Part shown: positions 6,407 to 46,555 of the stretch, piece by piece
Layout: every line of letters starts with the position of its first letter
Numbering within the stretch: the stretch's first letter is position 1
Source of the DNA: a virus
Virus record (IMG/VR): IMGVR_UViG_3300029893_000014
Coordinates: 1 to 48,503 of that record
Direction: 5' to 3' (one strand)
Length of the DNA stretch: 48,503 nt
Position numbers and translations under genes: made by a program
Notes under the pieces: model-generated
Database searches by the model: none
Told to the model about the DNA's origin: nothing
What the model saw: only the letters and a program-made list of their open reading frames with translations

Positions 6407-8586
6407 TGGCTCGCGCTCTCGCCACAGCCCTACAGGAAACCGGCGGCCTTGACATCGAGGCGCCTGCCGGTCTCGGCAACGCGTTGACCGCAGGCGAGTC
6501 GCCGTCGCCGCGCGACCAGCAGCGGCTGCTACTGCGCTGGTCTGACCGGCTTGAGACGCCCAACATCGCCGAGGAGCTGCGCGACAACACCGGAACCAAC
6601 AGTCTCGGCTCCATCGGCTTCAAGGTCATCGAGGAAGCCGATCTAGACAACCGGTCCCGCGAGGAATGGATACGCCAGAGCAGGGACGCGATGGACCTTG
6701 CCATGCTGGTAGCCAAGGGCAAGACCGATCCGTGGCCTGGCTGTTCCAACATCGTCTATCCCCTGATGGCGGTAGCGGCGGTGCAGTTCGCGGCGCGGGC
6801 CTATCCCGCCGTGGTGGCCGACCGCAACGTGGTCCGTGGTGTCGTGTTCGGTGAGGACGAGGGCGTGCCGCTCGTCGACCCCCGCACCGGCCAGTCGCTC
6901 GCTGATCCGCAGACCGGAGAGCCGCTGTGGGCTGTGCCGCCCGGCGAGCTGCGCCGCAGGGCCGACCGTGTTGCTTCTCATATGTCCTGGCAGCTCCTTG
7001 AGGAGCAGCCGGAATGGGAGCCTGAGACCGACAAGCTGCTGCACATCCTGCCGATCCAAGGCTGTGCGTTCCGCAAGAACTACTACGACCCCGGCGAGGG
7101 GCGGAACTTCTCCGTCCTGGTGTCGCCCAAGAACCTGATCGTCAACTACTACGCGCAGTCGCTGGAGACGGCGCCGCGCATCACCGAGATCATCGAATAC
7201 TACCCGCACGAGATCGAGGAGATGGTCAGGGCCGGGTTGTTCCTCGACCAGGACTATGGCCAGGGCAAGGATGCCCAAGACCCGGACAGCCCGCACGAGT
7301 TTTATGAGCAGCACCGCCGGCTCGACCTGGACGAGGACGGCTACCCGGAGCCCTACATCGTCACGGTCCACAAGGAGACGATGAAGGTTGCGCGCATCGT
7401 GGCGCGGTACGAGCCGCAGGGCGTCTTTTTCGACGGCCCGTTGCTGCGCAAGATAGAGCCGGTTCACTACTACACCGCCTATGAGTTCCTGCCCAACCCG
7501 GACGGCGGTGTGTATGGGCTGGGTTTCGGCCAGCTTCTGAGGCCGATCAATGAGGCGGTCAACTCGACGCTCAACATGCTGTTCGATGCCGGCCACCTGG
7601 CCAATGCCGGCGGCGGGTTCATCGGCAAGGGGCTATCGCTCCATGCCGGCGCGGTGCGGTTCCGCCCCGGTGAGTACAAAGAGGTCAGGGCGTTCGGCTC
7701 GGCCATCCGCGATGCCATCGTGCCGCTCGACTTCCCCGGTCCCAGCCCGGTCCTGTTTCAATTGCTCGGCATGTTGATCGAGGCCGGCAAGGACGTAGCG
7801 GCGATCAAGGACATCCTGACCGGCGAAACCAGGGCGGCCAATACCCCGGCCACCACCATCCTGGCGCTGATCGAGCAGGGCTTGAAGGTGTTTACCGCCA
7901 TCTTCAAGCGGGTTCATCGGTCACTCAAGAAGGACTACGACAAACTCTACCGGCTCAACTCGATCTATCTCGACGACATCGCCCGGTTCCGGGTCGGCAA
8001 CGAGATGCATCAGGTCAGCCGGCTCGACTACCAGCGCGGCGCCGGCATTGCCCCGGTCAGCGATCCCAAGACCGTTTCCGACATGCAAAAACTCGGCCGG
8101 GCCGAGTTTCTCAAGACCTGGGCCGGCGATCCCCATGTCGATCAGGTCGAGTTGCGCCGCCGGGTCTTCGAGGCCGCGCAGATCGAGAATGTCGATGACC
8201 TGCTTCTCACTGAGCAGCCACCCGATCCGGCCATTGAACTGAAGAAGATCGAGGTCAAGGCCCGCGCCGTCAAGGAGATGGCATTGGCCTACAAGGCCAT
8301 AGGCGAGACGGACATTCAGGTGCTGCAAGGCTTGGGGCCGCAGGGACTGCAATGGGTCGCGGCCCAAATGGACCTGATGCGACTGAGAATCGAAACCCTG
8401 GATCAAGAGATCAATGAACAGCAGCAACAGCAGCAACCCGGCTCCGCTGATGGAAGTGAACGGGGTCAACGAGCCGCACTTCCAGGCATGGCGTCGACAT
8501 CCGGTGACGTTGGCCCTGCGGCGCTATCTCAACGACTGGGCGGAGCAGTTGAAGGCGGACCACCTGTCCAGATGGGCGGCGGGTAA
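6406..8586 (+). CDS. portal protein
   Basis: A 726-residue portal, close in length to P22 gp1. It would form the dodecameric DNA channel at one capsid vertex. Recognisable portal segments include DPWPGCSNIVYPLMAVAAVQ, RVASHMSWQLLEEQPEWEPE, DKLLHILPIQGCAFRKNYYD, VSPKNLIVNYYAQSLETAPR and GVYGLGFGQLLRPINEAVNS, followed by a helical stem/crown part and a Gln-rich, Gly-rich tail (NEQQQQQQPGSADGSERG). The ATG overlaps the upstream stop. The last 173 bases also encode the next gene in another frame, so the tail is probably tolerant of change. Confidence 0.9.
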   Translation: MARALATALQETGGLDIEAPAGLGNALTAGESPSPRDQQRLLLRWSDRLETPNIAEELRDNTGTNSLGSIGFKVIEEADLDNRSREEWIRQSRDAMDLAMLVAKGKTDPWPGCSNIVYPLMAVAAVQFAARAYPAVVADRNVVRGVVFGEDEGVPLVDPRTGQSLADPQTGEPLWAVPPGELRRRADRVASHMSWQLLEEQPEWEPETDKLLHILPIQGCAFRKNYYDPGEGRNFSVLVSPKNLIVNYYAQSLETAPRITEIIEYYPHEIEEMVRAGLFLDQDYGQGKDAQDPDSPHEFYEQHRRLDLDEDGYPEPYIVTVHKETMKVARIVARYEPQGVFFDGPLLRKIEPVHYYTAYEFLPNPDGGVYGLGFGQLLRPINEAVNSTLNMLFDAGHLANAGGGFIGKGLSLHAGAVRFRPGEYKEVRAFGSAIRDAIVPLDFPGPSPVLFQLLGMLIEAGKDVAAIKDILTGETRAANTPATTILALIEQGLKVFTAIFKRVHRSLKKDYDKLYRLNSIYLDDIARFRVGNEMHQVSRLDYQRGAGIAPVSDPKTVSDMQKLGRAEFLKTWAGDPHVDQVELRRRVFEAAQIENVDDLLLTEQPPDPAIELKKIEVKARAVKEMALAYKAIGETDIQVLQGLGPQGLQWVAAQMDLMRLRIETLDQEINEQQQQQQPGSADGSERGQRAALPGMASTSGDVGPAALSQRLGGAVEGGPPVQMGGG

Positions 8587-8722
8587 GCCGCTCGACCCGG
8601 CATTCGAGGCCGAGGTGGCGATCAGGCGCGCCATGGCGCTGGAACTGGCGGAGCTGAGCTTCGACGACATGGCCGCGTTCTACGGGGCAAATGAAGAGGA
8701 GACCGATGTCGATCACGCCTAA
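8414..8722 (+). CDS. hypothetical protein largely nested in the portal 3' end
   Basis: A 102-residue protein whose first 57 codons lie in the +1 frame over the end of portal. The composition is protein-like: EPHFQAWRRHPVTLALRRYL and NDWAEQLKADHLSRWAAGK, followed by a helical FEAEVAIRRAMALELAELSF region. AGAG precedes ATG 8414; ATG 8450 is an alternative with no clear ribosome site. Its acidic end overlaps the GroES-like start. The role is unknown; portal-adjacent genes of this size are often assembly factors. Confidence 0.6.
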   Translation: MNSSNSSNPAPLMEVNGVNEPHFQAWRRHPVTLALRRYLNDWAEQLKADHLSRWAAGKPLDPAFEAEVAIRRAMALELAELSFDDMAAFYGANEEETDVDHA

Positions 8723-9071
8723 GCTCATCAAAACCGATCTGGCCGAGTACGAACCGGCCCAATGGACGGGCCGCAACACATCCGGGATCGAGCCCATCGC
8801 AGCCGACAGCGGCACCGTACTGGTGCTGCTGGACAAGGTAGTCGAGAAAAGCCGGGGCGGCATCATGCTGCCGCAGAACCTGACCGAACGGCAGGGGCTG
8901 GCCGCTGAGAGCGGCGTCTTGGTTGCGTCCGATCCCAAGTCGGACCTGGCTCCATATGTGGGGCGCCGAGTCTATTTCGAGCGCTATGCCGGGGCCACGG
9001 TGATCGGGGCCGACGATCAGCGCTATCGCCTGATGTCGGCGGCATCGGTTGCCGGCGTCGAGGTTGAGTGA
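8706..9071 (+). CDS. GroES-like co-chaperonin
   Basis: A 121-residue protein with GAGGAG just before ATG 8706. After about 30 extra N-terminal residues it follows the GroES fold: TVLVLLDKVVEKSRGGIMLP (37-56), matching the beta strand plus mobile loop with its GGI(M/V)LP, then SGVLVASD (69-76), VGRRVYFERYAGATVI (85-100) and the C-terminal RYRLMSAASVAGVEVE (106-121), equivalent to YLIM-S-DILA-VE. GroES caps GroEL; phage versions such as T4 gp31 help fold capsid proteins. Its place between portal and scaffold genes fits that role. Confidence 0.8.
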   Translation: MSITPKLIKTDLAEYEPAQWTGRNTSGIEPIAADSGTVLVLLDKVVEKSRGGIMLPQNLTERQGLAAESGVLVASDPKSDLAPYVGRRVYFERYAGATVIGADDQRYRLMSAASVAGVEVE

Positions 9072-9095
9072 TCAATCACCATCAATGAGGATGCA

Positions 9096-10046
9096 ATGAC
9101 TGAGGATCAAGTCGAGGTCCGCGACGACAACGTGGATCAGATTGACGAAACCGTCACTGACGATGACGGCACGGACGAGCCGACAACCGACACAGCGCCT
9201 GAGCCCGACCCTTACGAGCAACGCGCCCGCCGCATGGGCTGGGTGCCAGAGGACGAATGGGACGCGGATCGGGCCAAGGAAGAGGGCCGGCGCAAGCCCA
9301 GCCATTTCCTGTCGGCCAAGGAGTACGTCGAGAAGGTCGAATCCGACCTGCCGGTGCTGCGGGAGCGCAATCGCTTCCTCGACCAGGAGGTCAAGCGCTT
9401 CACCACCAAGCTCGACGACGCCACCCGTCGCATTGAGGAGATGGGCGGGCTGGTCAAGACGCTGCACGAGCAGAACGTCAAGGTCGGCCAGCGGGCCTAT
9501 GAACGGGCCAGACGCGAGCTTGAAGCCGAGATGCGCCAGGCCGTGGCCGAGGCCGATGTCGAGAAGTACGAAGAAAAGAAACAAGCCCTCGAACAGCTCG
9601 ACCAGGAGCACCGCGCCCAACAGCCGGTCGAACAGAAGGGTGAGGACGCCCCGCAACAGACGCAGCGGGCCGAGCCCAATCCAGTCGTCGAGCAGTGGAT
9701 CGAGGATAACAAGTGGTTCCGCACCGATCATACCCTGCATCAAGTCGCCATCGTCATGCATGGCGATCTGCTGAGGTCGGCGCCGGGCCTGTCGCTGCGC
9801 GACAACCTCGACCGTGTGGCCGACGAGATCAAGCGCCGGTTCCCGGAGAAGTTCGGCAATCCTGCCAGGGCGGCACCGGGGACAGTGGCCCGGCCGGCAC
9901 CGGGCAAGCAGCGCAGCAACGGCCGCACCTTTGCCGATCTGCCGCAGGACGCCCGTGACGCCTACGAGCAGTTGCGCCAGCAATTCGAGCAGCACGGCCG
10001 TCAATACACCCGCGAGCAATACCTCGCCGACTATCAATGGCAATGA
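9096..10046 (+). CDS. scaffolding protein (probable)
   Basis: A 316-residue, very acidic and Gln-rich protein. Residues 1-35 are Asp/Thr-rich, then RRMGWVPEDEWD, then a long coiled coil (about 75-185: VLRERNRFLDQEVKRFTTKL, RRIEEMGGLVKTLHEQNVK, YEEKKQALEQLDQEHRAQQ) and a basic helical end (YEQLRQQFEQHGRQYTREQY). This architecture and the position between portal and coat are typical of head scaffolds, which direct capsid assembly and then leave. GAGG precedes the ATG by eight bases. No protease is visible next to it. Confidence 0.75.
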   Translation: MTEDQVEVRDDNVDQIDETVTDDDGTDEPTTDTAPEPDPYEQRARRMGWVPEDEWDADRAKEEGRRKPSHFLSAKEYVEKVESDLPVLRERNRFLDQEVKRFTTKLDDATRRIEEMGGLVKTLHEQNVKVGQRAYERARRELEAEMRQAVAEADVEKYEEKKQALEQLDQEHRAQQPVEQKGEDAPQQTQRAEPNPVVEQWIEDNKWFRTDHTLHQVAIVMHGDLLRSAPGLSLRDNLDRVADEIKRRFPEKFGNPARAAPGTVARPAPGKQRSNGRTFADLPQDARDAYEQLRQQFEQHGRQYTREQYLADYQWQ

Positions 10047-32943: not shown

Positions 32944-33186
32944 ATGACCCCACCGTCTCATCCTTCGATTGACCGCCTTGACGAGCGCTCCAAGGCCCAT
33001 GCCGACAAGCTCGACATGCTGGACGAGCGGCTGAAGAAGGTCGAAGGCAAGCTCGACTCCATCATCTCCACCCTGTCTGAGGCCAAAGGTGGGTGGCGTA
33101 TGCTCATGATCGTCGGCGGCATGGCCGGGGTGGTGGGGGCGTTCCTGACCAAGATTGCGTCATGGCTGCCGTTGGGGATCAGGTGA
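32944..33186 (+). CDS. XhlA-like membrane protein (holin-like candidate)
   Basis: An 80-residue protein, GGAG eight bases before the ATG. The N-terminal half is a coiled coil (DKLDMLDERLKKVEGKLDSI), the C-terminal half one membrane segment (about 52-70, MLMIVGGMAGVVGAFLTKI). This is the architecture of hemolysin XhlA-like and related holin-associated proteins. Its place after the ejection genes and before the membrane cassette is compatible with a lysis role, but another holin candidate sits next to the endolysin at 43 kb. Confidence 0.65.
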   Translation: MTPPSHPSIDRLDERSKAHADKLDMLDERLKKVEGKLDSIISTLSEAKGGWRMLMIVGGMAGVVGAFLTKIASWLPLGIR

Positions 33187-33189
33187 GCC

Positions 33190-33342
33190 CTACTCCTTGA
33201 GATACCCGCGTTCGCGCAAGTAGGCGAGCACAGCCAGTTCAACGACTTGCGATAGCGTTCGCCGGTCGTCTTTTGCCGCTTGCTCAAGAGCAGCCTTGGC
33301 CGCCGTCTCGATGCGGGCCTTGATTGTCACACTGCGGGCCAT
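33190..33342 (-). CDS. CopG-like ribbon-helix-helix repressor
   Basis: A 50-residue leftward gene. MARSVTIKARIETAAKAALE (strand then helix) and DDRRTLSQVVELAVLAYLRE (turn and helix 2) give the ribbon-helix-helix pattern over nearly the whole length, as in CopG/Arc. AAGGA lies six bases before the ATG. It is divergent from the membrane cassette; the cassette promoter (33351-33379) starts nine bases from its ATG and holds a direct repeat in its spacer. It is therefore a probable repressor of the cassette, by context. Confidence 0.75.
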   Translation of the reverse strand: MARSVTIKARIETAAKAALEQAAKDDRRTLSQVVELAVLAYLRERGYLKE

Positions 33343-33350
33343 TGTGGTCC

Positions 33351-33379
33351 TTGACAGGGCCTAAAGTGGGCCTTATTGT
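33351..33379 (+). promoter_or_regulatory. strong promoter with operator repeats for the membrane cassette
   Basis: TTGACA (33351-33356), 17 bases, TATTGT (33374-33379). The spacer carries two direct copies of GGGCCT(A/T)A (33357 and 33368), about 11 bases apart, one helical turn, a usual layout for ribbon-helix-helix dimers binding side by side. The divergent gene at 33342 encodes just such a protein. Promoter match read directly; regulation inferred. Confidence 0.65.
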
Positions 33380-33413
33380 AGTCAGTCAGCGGCGGAAAAG
33401 CAAGGGGGCCATC

Positions 33414-33827
33414 ATGACGTTGCGTCAGTTCCTAGCCCTAATCGTCCTGGCCTGTCTCATCATCCTGGCCGGGATGGCGCTACAGGCCAGACAAGGCGCC
33501 ACCGCCGAAAGAGTCCTCGTCAACACCGCCGCCAAGGCTGATGCGCTGCCGGCCTGCCAGTCGATCGACCAGCTCCGCGCCCGCGCACGAGAGGCCGGCT
33601 ATCCGTCCCGCCTTCTTACCGGCACGGCGGCGGAACGCTACCTCATCGCACTCAACGGCATCCCGCCACGGACGGCCCACATCGCCGATGCCGTGGTATT
33701 CGCCAGGATCGGGCCGGACGCGGTTGGCCTCCTCCTCGTCGTCAAGGGCTGCGTGGTCAAGGCCCTGGCCATCTCTCGCCAGACCCACGAGGCCATCATG
33801 GGCAACATTCTCGGGCGGGTGTCGTGA
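33414..33827 (+). CDS. membrane-anchored protein, first gene of the cassette
   Basis: A 137-residue protein with AAGGGGG before ATG 33414. One N-terminal membrane segment (FLALIVLACLIILAGMALQA, 6-25), then an extracytoplasmic domain with two Cys (LPACQSIDQL; LLVVKGCVVKALAIS) that could pair. The domain is alpha/beta: DQLRARAREAGYPSRLLTGT, DAVVFARIGPDAVGLLLVVK. No family recognised. It is first behind the RHH-controlled promoter and its stop overlaps the channel gene start (TGATG), so the two are likely made together. Confidence 0.65.
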   Translation: MTLRQFLALIVLACLIILAGMALQARQGATAERVLVNTAAKADALPACQSIDQLRARAREAGYPSRLLTGTAAERYLIALNGIPPRTAHIADAVVFARIGPDAVGLLLVVKGCVVKALAISRQTHEAIMGNILGRVS

Positions 33828-34390
33828 TGCTGTCAAATCTGCTCATCTACCGCTGGCTGCTATGCAATGGATTAGGCATCAGCCTAGCCGTGTCTCTCGC
33901 ACTTTCCGGTCATCTCATTCCGATCATTCAGGGCGGGGCGCCGATCACCTACGCCATTCTCGCCCTGTTCGGCGTGGGCTGGGTCTGGACAATCAAGGAG
34001 GTCGTGTTCGCCAGCCTTGATCTCAACTGGGCCAAACAGCATGGCCCCCGGCAGGGCCATCCGGCCCAAGCGGATAAGGACGCCGAAAAGGTCGAGTGGT
34101 TGTCGAGCGTGGCCGAATGGCTGGTGGGCCTCGGCCTACTTGGAACGGTGTGGGGCTTTTACATCGCCTTGAGCGGTGTGGACCAAAACACGGTGAGCCA
34201 GGCGACGGGCGCCCAAGCCGCAGTTGCCGCCCTCATGCAGGGGATGCGAGTTGCGCTCACGACCACGCTTCTCGGGGCGGGCCTCGCCATGTGGCACGAG
34301 GTCAATGTGCGCTTGCTCAGGACGGGTCTTACCGTTCTGTGGGCTGATCGGATCGTAGCGCGAGATGAGGGTCGGGAGCCGGAGGAATGA
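33827..34390 (+). CDS. MotA/TolQ/ExbB-like proton-channel subunit
   Basis: A 187-residue inner-membrane protein with four predicted segments: about 12-35, 39-62, 98-117 and 133-157. The C-terminal pair carries the family signature: EWLVGLGLLGTVWGFYIALS (97-116) and LMQGMRVALTTTLLGAGLAM (136-155), matching TolQ/ExbB LLGTVxG(F/I) and GIxxALxTTxxGLxxA. Known members form pentamers that conduct protons with a TolR/ExbD/MotB partner. No TolA/TonB is nearby. The adjacent single-TM genes are candidate partners. It is shorter than MotA or ZorA and lacks their cytoplasmic extensions. Confidence 0.75.
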   Translation: MLSNLLIYRWLLCNGLGISLAVSLALSGHLIPIIQGGAPITYAILALFGVGWVWTIKEVVFASLDLNWAKQHGPRQGHPAQADKDAEKVEWLSSVAEWLVGLGLLGTVWGFYIALSGVDQNTVSQATGAQAAVAALMQGMRVALTTTLLGAGLAMWHEVNVRLLRTGLTVLWADRIVARDEGREPEE

Positions 34391-34983
34391 GCCGGTCCCG
34401 CGCCACGCCAACGCTGTTTCGGGACTTCCTGTTCCTGTCACTGCTGGGCTTCGTTGCCATGGTGGTATGGCTGCTGCCCCACGTCAACCCGCCGGCCCAA
34501 GAGGACAACACCGTCCCGCCCGGCAACGTCATCATCACCATCGTATGGCCGCCGGACATGGACAACGACGTTGATCTGTGGGTCATGGGGCCGGGCGAAA
34601 TCAGGCCCATCGGCTATTCCAACAAGGGCGGTACCCTGTTCAACTTGCTCCGCGACGACTTGGGCCATCGGCCCGACGCCAGCGGGATCAACTACGAGAA
34701 CGCCTACAGTCGTGGCGCCCCGGCCGGCGAATACATCGTCAACGTCCATTGCTACCGCTGCCCGGTGACGCCGGTCCCGGTCGAGGTCATCGTTGAACTC
34801 AATCCCGATCCGGCCCGCAGCAGGCCGACGCGGGTGCTGGCAGAGACCCGTGTCGAGCTTGGCCCGGCCCAGGAAAAGACGGCGATCCGGTTCGAACTGA
34901 ACGACAAGGGCAACGTCGTCGAGGGCAGCATCCACAACGTCTACAAGCGGCTGCGCAGCGGCGGAAAATGGAGCGGACCATGA
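34387..34983 (+). CDS. membrane-anchored DUF2135/YfaP-like protein
   Basis: A 198-residue protein overlapping the channel gene stop. One N-terminal membrane helix (FLFLSLLGFVAMVVWLLPHV, 14-33), then a periplasmic beta-sandwich: IITIVWPPDMDNDVDLWVMG (49-68, with D-x-DLWV), a GG turn (KGGTLFNLLRDDLGHRP) and GAPAGEYIVNVHCYRCP, the pattern of DUF2135/YfaP-like domains. The single N-terminal anchor plus periplasmic domain is the topology of ExbD/TolR/MotB partners, but the domain is not theirs. The pairing with the channel subunit is inferred from overlap. Confidence 0.68.
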   Translation: MSRSRATPTLFRDFLFLSLLGFVAMVVWLLPHVNPPAQEDNTVPPGNVIITIVWPPDMDNDVDLWVMGPGEIRPIGYSNKGGTLFNLLRDDLGHRPDASGINYENAYSRGAPAGEYIVNVHCYRCPVTPVPVEVIVELNPDPARSRPTRVLAETRVELGPAQEKTAIRFELNDKGNVVEGSIHNVYKRLRSGGKWSGP

Positions 34984-35477
34984 CGGACATCATCGTTCTG
35001 GCGGTTGCGGTGATTGCGCTCTTTGCCGGTGCGGCATGGCTGGCGGCATGGTCGAGAAAGGACACATGGGCGAGGCCCGCAGCAATGGCGCTGTTCATTC
35101 TCGGCATCCCCGTGGTCACGGCCTATGCCGTCCAGGCGCTCGGCCACCATAAGCCAATGAAGCTGGCATGGGACCTGCCGGCCGGCGAGCACCGCGTCAT
35201 GGCGGTGAAGATGGTGGAGGGCGACGCGATCTACCTCTACCTCGACACGACGAGGCCGGCTCCGCACCCGCTGTCTCTGCCATGGTCGCTCGACACAGCC
35301 AAGCGCATCCAGAAGCTCATGGACGAGGCGGCGGAGGCAGCCAAGGGACAGTTCATGATGCGCTACGAGCCGTCGCTCGATACCTACGCGCCGCAGTTCC
35401 ATCCGCTGCCGCAACCGCCGGTCCTGCCGCCCAAGCCGGTCCCGGAGGTCGAGCATCGCTACGAGCACGGCGCATGA
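34980..35477 (+). CDS. two-helix membrane protein of the cassette
   Basis: A 165-residue protein. ATG 34980 overlaps the upstream stop and has GGAG six bases before. Two membrane segments (about 4-24, IIVLAVAVIALFAGAAWLAA; 31-51, ARPAAMALFILGIPVVTAYA), then a domain of about 100 residues (AWDLPAGEHRVMAVKMVEGD, AIYLYLDTTRPAPHPLSLPW, DTAKRIQKLMDEA) and a Pro-rich tail. No family recognised. Tight overlaps on both sides place it in the cassette. Confidence 0.65.
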   Translation: MTDIIVLAVAVIALFAGAAWLAAWSRKDTWARPAAMALFILGIPVVTAYAVQALGHHKPMKLAWDLPAGEHRVMAVKMVEGDAIYLYLDTTRPAPHPLSLPWSLDTAKRIQKLMDEAAEAAKGQFMMRYEPSLDTYAPQFHPLPQPPVLPPKPVPEVEHRYEHGA

Positions 35478-36186: not shown

Positions 36187-36762
36187 ATGGACGATCATGA
36201 GGCGCAAGCCCTTGAGACACTTCGCAATCTGACATTGCAATGGATGTTGATTGCGGCAGGTGTATTTGGAATTGTTGGAGGGTTCATCACTGCCAGCGAG
36301 AAAGAGTTTCATCACTCAATCTCCCTCATGCTCGCGCTTTCTGCACTCGCGCTTAGTGGTTTCTTTGGCTATGTTATCCATGGTGCCCTCATAGACATGC
36401 TGACAGAGAAGAAGTTCAATCCAAAGTGGGTCAAAAAATGGGCTGCTGCCCAAATGCTATTGTTTATAGCAGGAAGTATACTTTTCATATGGTTCGTATT
36501 CTTCAACATTGGATCAGCGAAAGCGCAGGATCGATTGACAGAGTGGTTAGGCGATCCATATGTTATGGCAGCAGATACGGTATTTGTGAAATGGAATGCC
36601 AAAGAAATTGGTGTAAAGACAGAGGAGATTAGAGGGGCGTTTACCGAGGCTGTTAAGCGTAGAGTGGAGTCTCCCATATATGACCTTGAGCGGGAGGAGT
36701 CTTATGAGAATACGATGTTGTCCAGGTTTGATCAACAGAACAACAGGATGAGGACACAATAA
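36187..36762 (+). CDS. low-GC three-helix membrane protein
   Basis: A 191-residue protein; AGGAG eight bases before the ATG. Three membrane segments: about 18-36 (QWMLIAAGVFGIVGGFITA), 46-66 (SLMLALSALALSGFFGYVIH) and 89-108 (AQMLLFIAGSILFIWFVFFN), then a charged cytoplasmic tail of about 80 residues ending SRFDQQNNRMRTQ. The gene uses many A/T codons unlike its neighbours, a sign of recent transfer. It stands alone between two intergenic gaps. A superinfection-exclusion or defence role is possible; nothing proves it. Confidence 0.6.
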   Translation: MDDHEAQALETLRNLTLQWMLIAAGVFGIVGGFITASEKEFHHSISLMLALSALALSGFFGYVIHGALIDMLTEKKFNPKWVKKWAAAQMLLFIAGSILFIWFVFFNIGSAKAQDRLTEWLGDPYVMAADTVFVKWNAKEIGVKTEEIRGAFTEAVKRRVESPIYDLEREESYENTMLSRFDQQNNRMRTQ

Positions 36763-45123: not shown

Positions 45124-45564
45124 AAAATCCTGCACGTCCATGATGGCATCTTCAGCGTCGGTGAACACGGTTGTCACTGTTCCGTCTGCTTCATTAAGGC
45201 CGAAGATGAGGTTGCTGGTCGGAGATCGGCGGCGGGCATAACGGTCCCTGGAATCGGCGCGACGTGTTTCGTCGGCAAGCGCTGCGATCTCCTCGCGCAC
45301 AGCGGCCATGTCAACGCCCTTGACGCGCTCCAGGTAGCGCAGCACAGCATGGTCGGAAATGTGCAGGCCAGTGGCCGTCGCGGTCTTGCGGCGCTGCTCT
45401 TCCAGCTTCACCGCGTCGAGGCGGGCGCGCAGTTCATTGAGTACCGTCGCCTGTTGGTTGAAGGCGCGGCCGAGTTCGTACTTAAGATTGCGAAGAGCCT
45501 CGTCGTCTAGTTGAACGATGCTATCGCGAGGGGAATTATCACCTTGACTGAACAGGCCAGACAT
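45085..45564 (-). CDS. hypothetical protein running into the tRNA
   Basis: A 159-residue protein from ATG 45564 (an earlier ATG at 45594 overlaps the divergent transposase start; neither has a good ribosome site). LDDEALRNLKYELGRAFNQQ, RARLDAVKLEEQRRKTATAT, then HISDHAVLRYLERVKGVDMA (a conserved segment of a phage/host family) and RRSPTSNLIFGLNEADGTVT. The last residues VAQPDRASDF are a translation of the tRNA 5' half, and the stop TAA is the end of the anticodon loop. The original C-terminus was probably lost in a recombination at the tRNA. Confidence 0.6.
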   Translation of the reverse strand: MSGLFSQGDNSPRDSIVQLDDEALRNLKYELGRAFNQQATVLNELRARLDAVKLEEQRRKTATATGLHISDHAVLRYLERVKGVDMAAVREEIAALADETRRADSRDRYARRRSPTSNLIFGLNEADGTVTTVFTDAEDAIMDVQDFVPVAQPDRASDF

Positions 45565-45592
45565 GCCATATTGGTGGTCAAGGAGATTAGCC

Positions 45593-46555
45593 ATGACCAC
45601 AGTGGACCTGACGAACCCGATTTTCACTGACGCGGAAGCGGCTCGGAAACATTTCGAGGCGATCCGTTGGCCCGATGGCCCTTACTGCCCGTACTGCGGT
45701 CAGATGGACAGCGCGAAGCTCTTGGGCGGAAAATCGATGGGGCCGGGCTGGTACCACTGCAAGGACTGCCGACGTAAGTTTACGGCCCAGGTCGGCACGA
45801 TTTACGAGCGCTCGCATATCCCGATGACGAAATGGCTCCTCGCAACGCATCTTATGTGCGCCAGCAAGAAGGGTATTTCTGCGCACCAGCTGCATCGGAT
45901 GCTTGGCCTTCCGTACAAGACGGCGTGGTTCATGGCGCACCGCATTCGTGAGGGTATGCGCGAGTTGAACCCGGCGCCGGGATCGATGGGCGGTAACGGC
46001 AAGACTGTCGAGGCTGATGAGGCATTCATTGGTGGTAAAGAGAAGAACCGCCACCGCAGCCAGCGGGCCAAGCATCGCCTTGGCGGTAGCTGGGGAAAAG
46101 AGACGGTGTTCTCCCTGGTGGAGCGGAAGGGCCGCGTCCGTTCCATCCATACCCCAAGCGTGACCGCTGCCACATTGCGGCCGATCCTTGTTGAGCTTTT
46201 GGAAGGTCGGACCAAACTGATGACTGACGACGCTGGTCAGTACCGTTTCATGTACCGCGATTTTCAGCATGAGATCGTCAATCACGGTGCTGGCGAATAT
46301 GTGCGCGGGGAAGCTCACACCAACACGGTTGAAAGCTATTTCGCGGTGTTGAAGCGCGGGATCATCGGCACCTATCACCACGTCAGCGCTCAGCACTTGA
46401 AGCGGTATCTTGCCGAGTTCGATTTCCGGTACAACGAACGTGCGGCGCTCAACGTCACCGACGCGGCGCGGGCGAGCAAGGCGGTCAAGGGTGCGGTCGG
46501 CAAGCGAATGACCTATCAAAGCACTAATGGCCGACAGATCGAAGCCCACGCCTAG
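45593..46555 (+). mobile_element. IS1595-family transposase gene (second copy, diverged)
   Basis: A 320-residue transposase; AAGGAG seven bases before ATG 45593. Zinc ribbon YCPYCGQMD...WYHCKDCRRKF (Cys 32, 35, 56, 59), helix-turn-helix SKKGISAHQLHRMLGLPYKT, and DDE residues VEADEAFIGGKEKN (D142), LMTDDAGQYRF (D212/D213), HTNTVESYFAVLKRG (E247). It belongs to a different subgroup from the copy at 38.8 kb. Its stop shares CTAG with the stop of the convergent small gene, leaving no room for a terminal repeat right after it; I found none by eye. Confidence 0.9.

Follow-up and report, generated by a model that had tools for sequence, protein, structure and literature searches.

A three-gene module of tailed phages that resembles a compact ion-driven membrane motor

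Introduction

Ion-driven motors of 5:2 composition are known as machines of cells, in which they power flagella, Ton-dependent uptake, the Tol-Pal system, gliding, secretion and Zorya defence. The IMG/VR virus record IMGVR_UViG_3300029893_000014, analysed here over its whole length of 48,503 nucleotides (hereafter the window), belongs to a tailed phage, with an Amidase_2 endolysin, Rz/Rz1-like genes and a sub-threshold match to an SU10-like portal, and harbors a small membrane cassette in which an initial annotation, made from the letters of the DNA, had noticed a channel subunit of the MotA/TolQ/ExbB kind. The question raised by this locus is whether such a channel belongs to a complete motor and, if so, what a phage would use it for.

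It is proposed here that three adjacent genes of the cassette, named A (the channel subunit), B (a one-helix protein with a beta domain) and C (a two-helix protein), encode a compact inner-membrane motor built on the MotAB/ExbBD/TolQR/ZorAB plan, a reading that we consider rather probable. The mechanism as an ion-driven membrane motor is likely, and the module is apparently a previously undescribed variant that is widespread in phages. No description of the A-B-C system was found in the open-licence literature, preprints excluded, so that this absence is no proof.

The Channel Subunit and the Conserved Unit

A carries the signatures LLGTVWGF and ALTTTLLGAG, and homology searches bore out its assignment to the channel family. 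It matched PF01618 with an E-value of 1.2e-9 (38.4 bits, cut-off 22.9), as did 25 of its 27 relatives (E up to 0.1); G106, G110 and G150 were invariant over these 27, and T147 was kept in 25 of them. A profile search of the PDB with A recovered MotA, ZorA, TolQ, PomA and ExbB, while ZorA was the best match both in PADLOC (E 5e-8) and in NCBIfam (3e-4). Most phage members are 137–187 residues long, those of rhizobial phages typically 137–146, as against 220–287 for solved TolQ/ExbB chains.

When the window A was the sole query, no relatives were found in viral contigs or named phages, and C as the sole query likewise found no phage relatives. The A-only search was blind because A diverges too fast, its profile being too variable for a contig scan, and the system was found only through B, which served as the bait for locus searches; some loci turned up in two separate searches, and near-copies were then removed. 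With this bait, 27 named phage records were recovered (19 phages without RefSeq copies), the hosts of which were all Rhizobium or Sinorhizobium. They comprise at least four unrelated kinds of phage, namely 16-3-like temperate phages of 59–69 kb, RHph_N3_13-like phages, Pootjesviridae of 153–159 kb and RHph_I1_18 of 171 kb, and the order A, B, C was complete in all six named-phage loci that were opened. In a first round, which included 32 IMG/VR and 80 bacterial loci, A lay upstream of B in 118 of 119 cases, and the one remaining locus was truncated where its contig ends. Full-length B occurred in 16 of 398 Pseudomonadota genomes (seed included), with A present at 20/20 full-length loci checked. 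A second B profile contributed 58 more viral loci, on contigs of up to 223 kb; in these, taken together with two Azospirillum loci, A adjoined B in 56 of 60 and C did so in 58, four of the six misses being cut by contig ends. All three genes were found in 190 loci, which gave 71 non-redundant A-B-C sets. The carriers also include marine T4-like and other large phages and the chromosomes of Bradyrhizobium, Azospirillum, Kiloniellaceae and marine alpha- and gammaproteobacteria, and the co-occurrence in other genomes that the initial annotation had suggested looking for thus exists in phages as well as in bacteria. In some rhizobial phages, homing-type nucleases (Seg-like or HNH) lie between A and B (loci L002 and L006) or between B and C (L007), and no gene of the module is replaced by them.

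The conserved unit is three genes, A-B-C, and not five. The cassette had been described with two further members, a gene starting at 33414 and a divergent ribbon-helix-helix (RHH) gene. Its A, B and C are indeed linked elsewhere, whereas these two lack counterparts in any other locus: the RHH gene had no relative in any fetched A-B-C locus, and the 33414 gene had no family match, no phage relative and none in the fetched loci. Both were accordingly dropped as core parts.

Between the 71 sets, the distance-matrix correlations of A, B and C were 0.72, 0.51 and 0.35 (the last for A-C), with null maxima of at most 0.17, and dN/dS (the ratio of nonsynonymous to synonymous substitution rates) was 0.06–0.32 in measurable phage pairs. 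Co-divergence and low dN/dS therefore argue that A, B and C are transmitted together and have evolved jointly under purifying selection. The opposite reading, in which A is a plain membrane protein linked with B and C by shared transcription and not as one machine, finds its footing in the fact that the complex is deduced from genes and in the weak conservation of C, visible in the A-C correlation. Against it stand the constant order of the three genes and the short distances between them in phages and bacteria that are not related to one another, the invariant Asp of viral B proteins described below and a co-divergence well above the shuffles, and we regard it as highly improbable.

The Candidate Axle and the Third Protein

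It had been stated that no TolA, TonB, MotB or ZorB is present in the cassette. By name this stands, as the OmpA (PF00691) and TonB C-terminal (PF03544) profiles gave no match in the window and ExbD (PF02472) gave none at E-values of up to 10, but B looks like the missing MotB/ExbD-type partner of A. An Asp was found in the helix of B in all 96 readable viral B proteins, and in many B relatives the surrounding motif is FxDLLFN. The helix profile of B matched that of ExbD/TolR with a score of 16.5, which was reached by none of 150 column shuffles, and with the Asp residues in register; with MotB, the score was reached by three of 150. Taken alone, the helix-profile match to ExbD/TolR is moderate evidence, because the helix is short, and the reading of B as an axle is strengthened by its constant placement directly after the channel gene. 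Since B has the conserved Asp and an ExbD-matching helix, the system would have an axle, and its new parts would be the beta domain and the third gene.

The predicted single-chain model of B (mean predicted local distance difference test, pLDDT, 86) consists of a helix at residues 8–33 and an eight-stranded beta domain, a beta-sandwich, in which D61, D63, R89, D90, D91 and E104 are invariant. This domain had been called DUF2135/YfaP-like. The window protein itself had no Pfam match, DUF2135 (PF09906) included, and DUF2135 was matched by two of 28 B relatives (best E 0.013); in the reverse search, however, large bacterial proteins were picked out by the B family profile through their DUF2135 domains (E 5e-7), and Pfam confirmed the domain in two of them. 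The designation thus seems correct, but the kinship is remote and the match weak. A fold search with B gave no significant PDB match, and its weak viral matches included a protein named TerD-like (E 5e-4), a mere hint of a calcium-binding sandwich.

The single-chain model of C (pLDDT 85) comprises two helices and an alpha/beta domain, and a proline-rich LPxP tail is common to most of its distant members. The basic loop between the two helices suggests that the C-terminus lies outside. Both B and C are nameless in Pfam, NCBIfam, PHROGs and PADLOC, and the fold of C had no significant match in the PDB.

These elements can be assembled into a working model. A subunits would form a ring, a pentamer by analogy, around the single helix of B, which would act as the axle, a dimer by analogy, so that a 5:2 stoichiometry is expected. 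Asp13 of B would carry a proton, presumably rather than sodium, past the polar Thr residues of A. B would end in the periplasm in its DUF2135-like beta-sandwich, which would replace an OmpA-type wall anchor or the ExbD fold, and movement would most likely be passed on through C to a target in the periplasm or the outer membrane. Phages carry A-B-C as an accessory module.

Several points weigh against this model. First, A is devoid of the large cytoplasmic part that is present in most of its known relatives. Second, B is missed by the Pfam ExbD model, and its short helix profile, when compared with PDB sequences, found no match. Third, the Asp is replaced by Val in the Bradyrhizobium-type chromosomal B, which makes up 76 of 102 bacterial rows in a redundant set; therefore, the standard proton-motor kind is excluded for some family members. 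Finally, the role discussed below is read from gene neighbours alone. The Bradyrhizobium-type B proteins (L057-L119, motif DPLGVMLFKAL) also have Lys for Asn four residues past the Val, and their operon is kept. In this branch, the ion-binding residue or the ion coupling may have been lost or relocated.

The Cassette in the Window

The cassette is flanked by the end of the gene for a 1655-residue protein and by a set of small genes (Table 1). The four overlapping genes, the divergent 50-residue RHH-like gene, the TTGACA-17-TATTGT promoter and the two GGGCCTWA boxes were all located where the initial annotation had placed them. The same-strand overlaps are TGATG at 33825-33829 and ATGA at 34387 and at 34980; the reading frame of C opens at 34968, and the ATGA-coupled ATG at 34980 is the likelier start.

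Table 1. Features of the membrane cassette, numbered from the first nucleotide of the window
Feature	Positions	Strand	Remarks
RHH-like regulator, 50 aa	33190..33342	-	Divergent; sub-threshold CopG/Arc/RHH matches
Sigma-70-like promoter, TTGACA-17-TATTGT	33351..33379	+	Consensus match; putative function
GGGCCTAA box, possible operator half-site	33357..33364	+	GGGCCTWA pattern
GGGCCTTA box, possible second operator half-site	33368..33375	+	GGGCCTWA pattern; 2 bp overlap with the -10 element
Single-helix protein, 137 aa, first gene of the transcript	33414..33827	+	Outside the conserved unit
A, MotA/TolQ/ExbB-type channel subunit, 187 aa, minimal cytoplasmic loop	33827..34390	+	PF01618
B, putative axle subunit, 198 aa, transmembrane helix 8-33 with Asp13 and DUF2135/YfaP-like beta-sandwich	34387..34983	+	
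C, protein with two transmembrane helices, 165 aa, small alpha/beta domain (predicted periplasmic) and proline-rich LPxP tail	34980..35477	+	

The GGGCCTWA pattern occurs just twice in the whole 48.5 kb, with 11 bp from one box to the other; since about 1.7 boxes would be expected by chance, their pairing inside the promoter is notable and their number is not. Promoter, divergent RHH gene and paired boxes would fit a small autoregulated unit, and in the window phage the A-B-C module probably sits under a promoter of its own with an RHH repressor.

This arrangement bears on the possibility that the module is an exclusion or defence device, a Zorya-like motor that would detect or respond to another phage arriving at the envelope and keep it out, so that the host cell is preserved for the phage already in residence. 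The apparent promoter and repressor of the window cassette would suit such a device, as would the similarity of A to ZorA in PADLOC and NCBIfam and the occurrence of the module in phages of the 16-3 type, which are temperate and carry int and attP. The module has no ZorB (OmpA domain), ZorC, ZorD or ZorE as a neighbour, however, and A is without the long cytoplasmic tail of ZorA; a PADLOC scan that covered only the adjacent cassette genes gave no match to a ZorC, ZorD or ZorE effector. Moreover, the module is also common in large phages of lytic type and on many Bradyrhizobium chromosomes, which is unusual for defence, and this explanation is judged unlikely.

Origin of the Module

In the B tree, a first clade holds bacterial chromosomal copies together with marine and large phages, and a second holds the 16-3-type phages, the window and a Kiloniellaceae chromosomal copy, with which the window B groups (support 96/91); deeper placements are uncertain because of long branches. 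By identity, the window B is nearest to copies on Azospirillum chromids (48%). Because the nearest copies are those of Kiloniellaceae and Azospirillum, the host of the window phage may be a Rhodospirillales-like alphaproteobacterium.

The chromosomal A-B-C operons of Bradyrhizobium, Azospirillum, Kiloniellaceae and marine alpha- and gammaproteobacteria invite the explanation that phages carry the module as host-derived auxiliary genes, which would boost uptake or envelope upkeep in infection as the chromosomal operon does for the cell. The grouping of the window B with the Kiloniellaceae copy agrees with it, some phage copies adjoin genes for SbmA/BacA peptide importers, and a phage ExbB has been proposed as an auxiliary gene in an earlier report (PMC11361711). 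Nevertheless, neither a TonB-like partner nor an outer-membrane transporter adjoins the module, and most phage copies stand in deep clades of their own and are not recent host captures. We consider this explanation somewhat unlikely.

Genomic Neighbours and Possible Role

A trypsin-like protease gene (Pfam Trypsin_2) lies directly before A in 16-3-type loci and downstream of the module in N3_13 and L038, while in several marine phages genes for SbmA/BacA (PF05992, E 1e-139 in the one tested), ClpP and a cell-wall hydrolase stand beside it. In Azospirillum, an Amidase_3 gene is found beside the module, and on Bradyrhizobium chromosomes it lies near genes for a metallophosphoesterase and a Ser/Thr kinase.

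Lysis genes are less regular neighbours. In 16-3-type phages, endolysin and spanin-like genes precede the module and share its strand, and the window cassette comes after an XhlA-like gene, from which one could imagine a controlled leak of protons through A and B, which would reduce the membrane potential late in infection and help to set off the holin. In the window itself, however, the distance to the amidase and spanin-like genes is about 8 kb, the modules of RL2RES and RHph_N3_13 lie among DNA-metabolism genes, and the chromosomal loci that were read share no lysis-gene neighbours. A part in lysis timing is thus quite improbable, and a pure lysis device was rejected, as the linkage to lysis genes is not constant.

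Since the recurrent neighbours (protease, SbmA/BacA, cell-wall hydrolase) act on the envelope, the role favoured here is that the motor energises an envelope process, either envelope maintenance or the exclusion of competitors, by which the infected or lysogenic cell would be kept suited to the phage. This role is put forward tentatively, at somewhat less than an even chance, and the host-like role in uptake or upkeep and the Zorya-like role are its close rivals.

Some further observations concern the surroundings of the module. SbmA/BacA-type importer and ClpP genes were seen on the module-bearing phage contigs L232-L236, L035, L036, L219, L227 and L242, and a phage-borne SbmA/BacA is in itself unusual. 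In Bradyrhizobium locus L074, the operon is followed at 7327-9543 by genes for a metallophosphoesterase and for a fusion of a protein kinase with a universal-stress domain (PF00069, PF00582). In 12 marine alpha- and gammaproteobacterial loci (L043-L054), it is followed by an antisense gene tentatively read as a pyrroloquinoline quinone-dependent alcohol dehydrogenase, so that two bacterial classes have this chromosomal linkage in common. In the window, an 80-residue XhlA-like protein with a coiled coil and one helix (Pfam XhlA, E 6e-4, below the cut-off) is encoded directly upstream of the cassette at 32944-33186, and a 191-residue three-helix membrane protein at 36187-36762, for which neither a matching family nor a relative among the fetched loci was found. 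A calcineurin-like phosphoesterase with an N-terminal extension (PF00149; 41770-42765) has a layout similar to that of p044 of phage 16-3, a gene that comes after the motor module in that phage. An IS1595-type transposase (PF12762, E 1e-38) at 45563-46555 adjoins the lysis genes.

Significance

If the motor reading is right, a whole phage-borne motor with its own axle would be a new viral gene class, which would suggest that phages draw on proton-motive force to act on the host envelope. The broader statement is that a complete proton-driven membrane motor of three proteins, forming a new subfamily (a ring subunit of 137–187 residues, a DUF2135-type axle and a two-helix coupler), is encoded by many tailed phages that are unrelated to one another and works mechanically on the envelope of infected cells. 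This statement, which would give viruses an activity of a class not known before, appears to us to be evenly balanced between true and false. The ring subunits, often of 137–146 residues, would rank among the smallest of their family and would be good material for structural work, and the phage version, once solved, would also annotate the chromosomal members in abundant soil and marine bacteria. Phage 16-3, a classical laboratory phage, carries the module as genes p038, p040 and p042, which makes the question testable.

Comparison with Known Systems

ExbB-like genes have been seen in phage genomes before. In Lentisphaerae phages, a "TonB-system energizer ExbB" was called a possible auxiliary gene (PMC11361711); it shares with the present module the A-type subunit, and no B or C partner is described in the accessible part of that report. 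Likewise, the accessible part of a survey of MotAB treats ZorAB as a remote homologue in phage defence and mentions no phage-borne B or C partner (PMC12505986).

With the MotAB/PomAB stators, the module shares the channel family and the Asp in the B helix, but it is devoid of a peptidoglycan-binding OmpA domain and of the large cytoplasmic part that generates torque. ZorAB of Zorya is likewise a membrane motor linked with phages, and among the profiles of PADLOC and NCBIfam those of ZorA fit A best; A-B-C differs in being carried by phages and in lacking an OmpA-type ZorB domain, the long tail of ZorA and any ZorC, ZorD or ZorE. Membership in Zorya was therefore rejected (no effectors among the adjacent genes, no OmpA domain), as was membership in Ton/Tol (no ExbD domain, no TonB domain). 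The DUF2135/YfaP proteins, found by profile search, have DxDL...RD motifs in common with the presumed periplasmic domain of B, whereas their domain resides in large proteins without a motor-type helix.

With ExbBD/TolQR, A has in common the GLxGTVWG motif and the Thr pattern of TolQ/ExbB, and B has one N-terminal helix with its Asp in register with that of ExbD/TolR, in the same gene order of A before B. In contrast, A is shorter than the solved TolQ/ExbB chains, C is not TonB or TolA, and the ExbD/TolR domain is replaced in B by its DUF2135-like sandwich.

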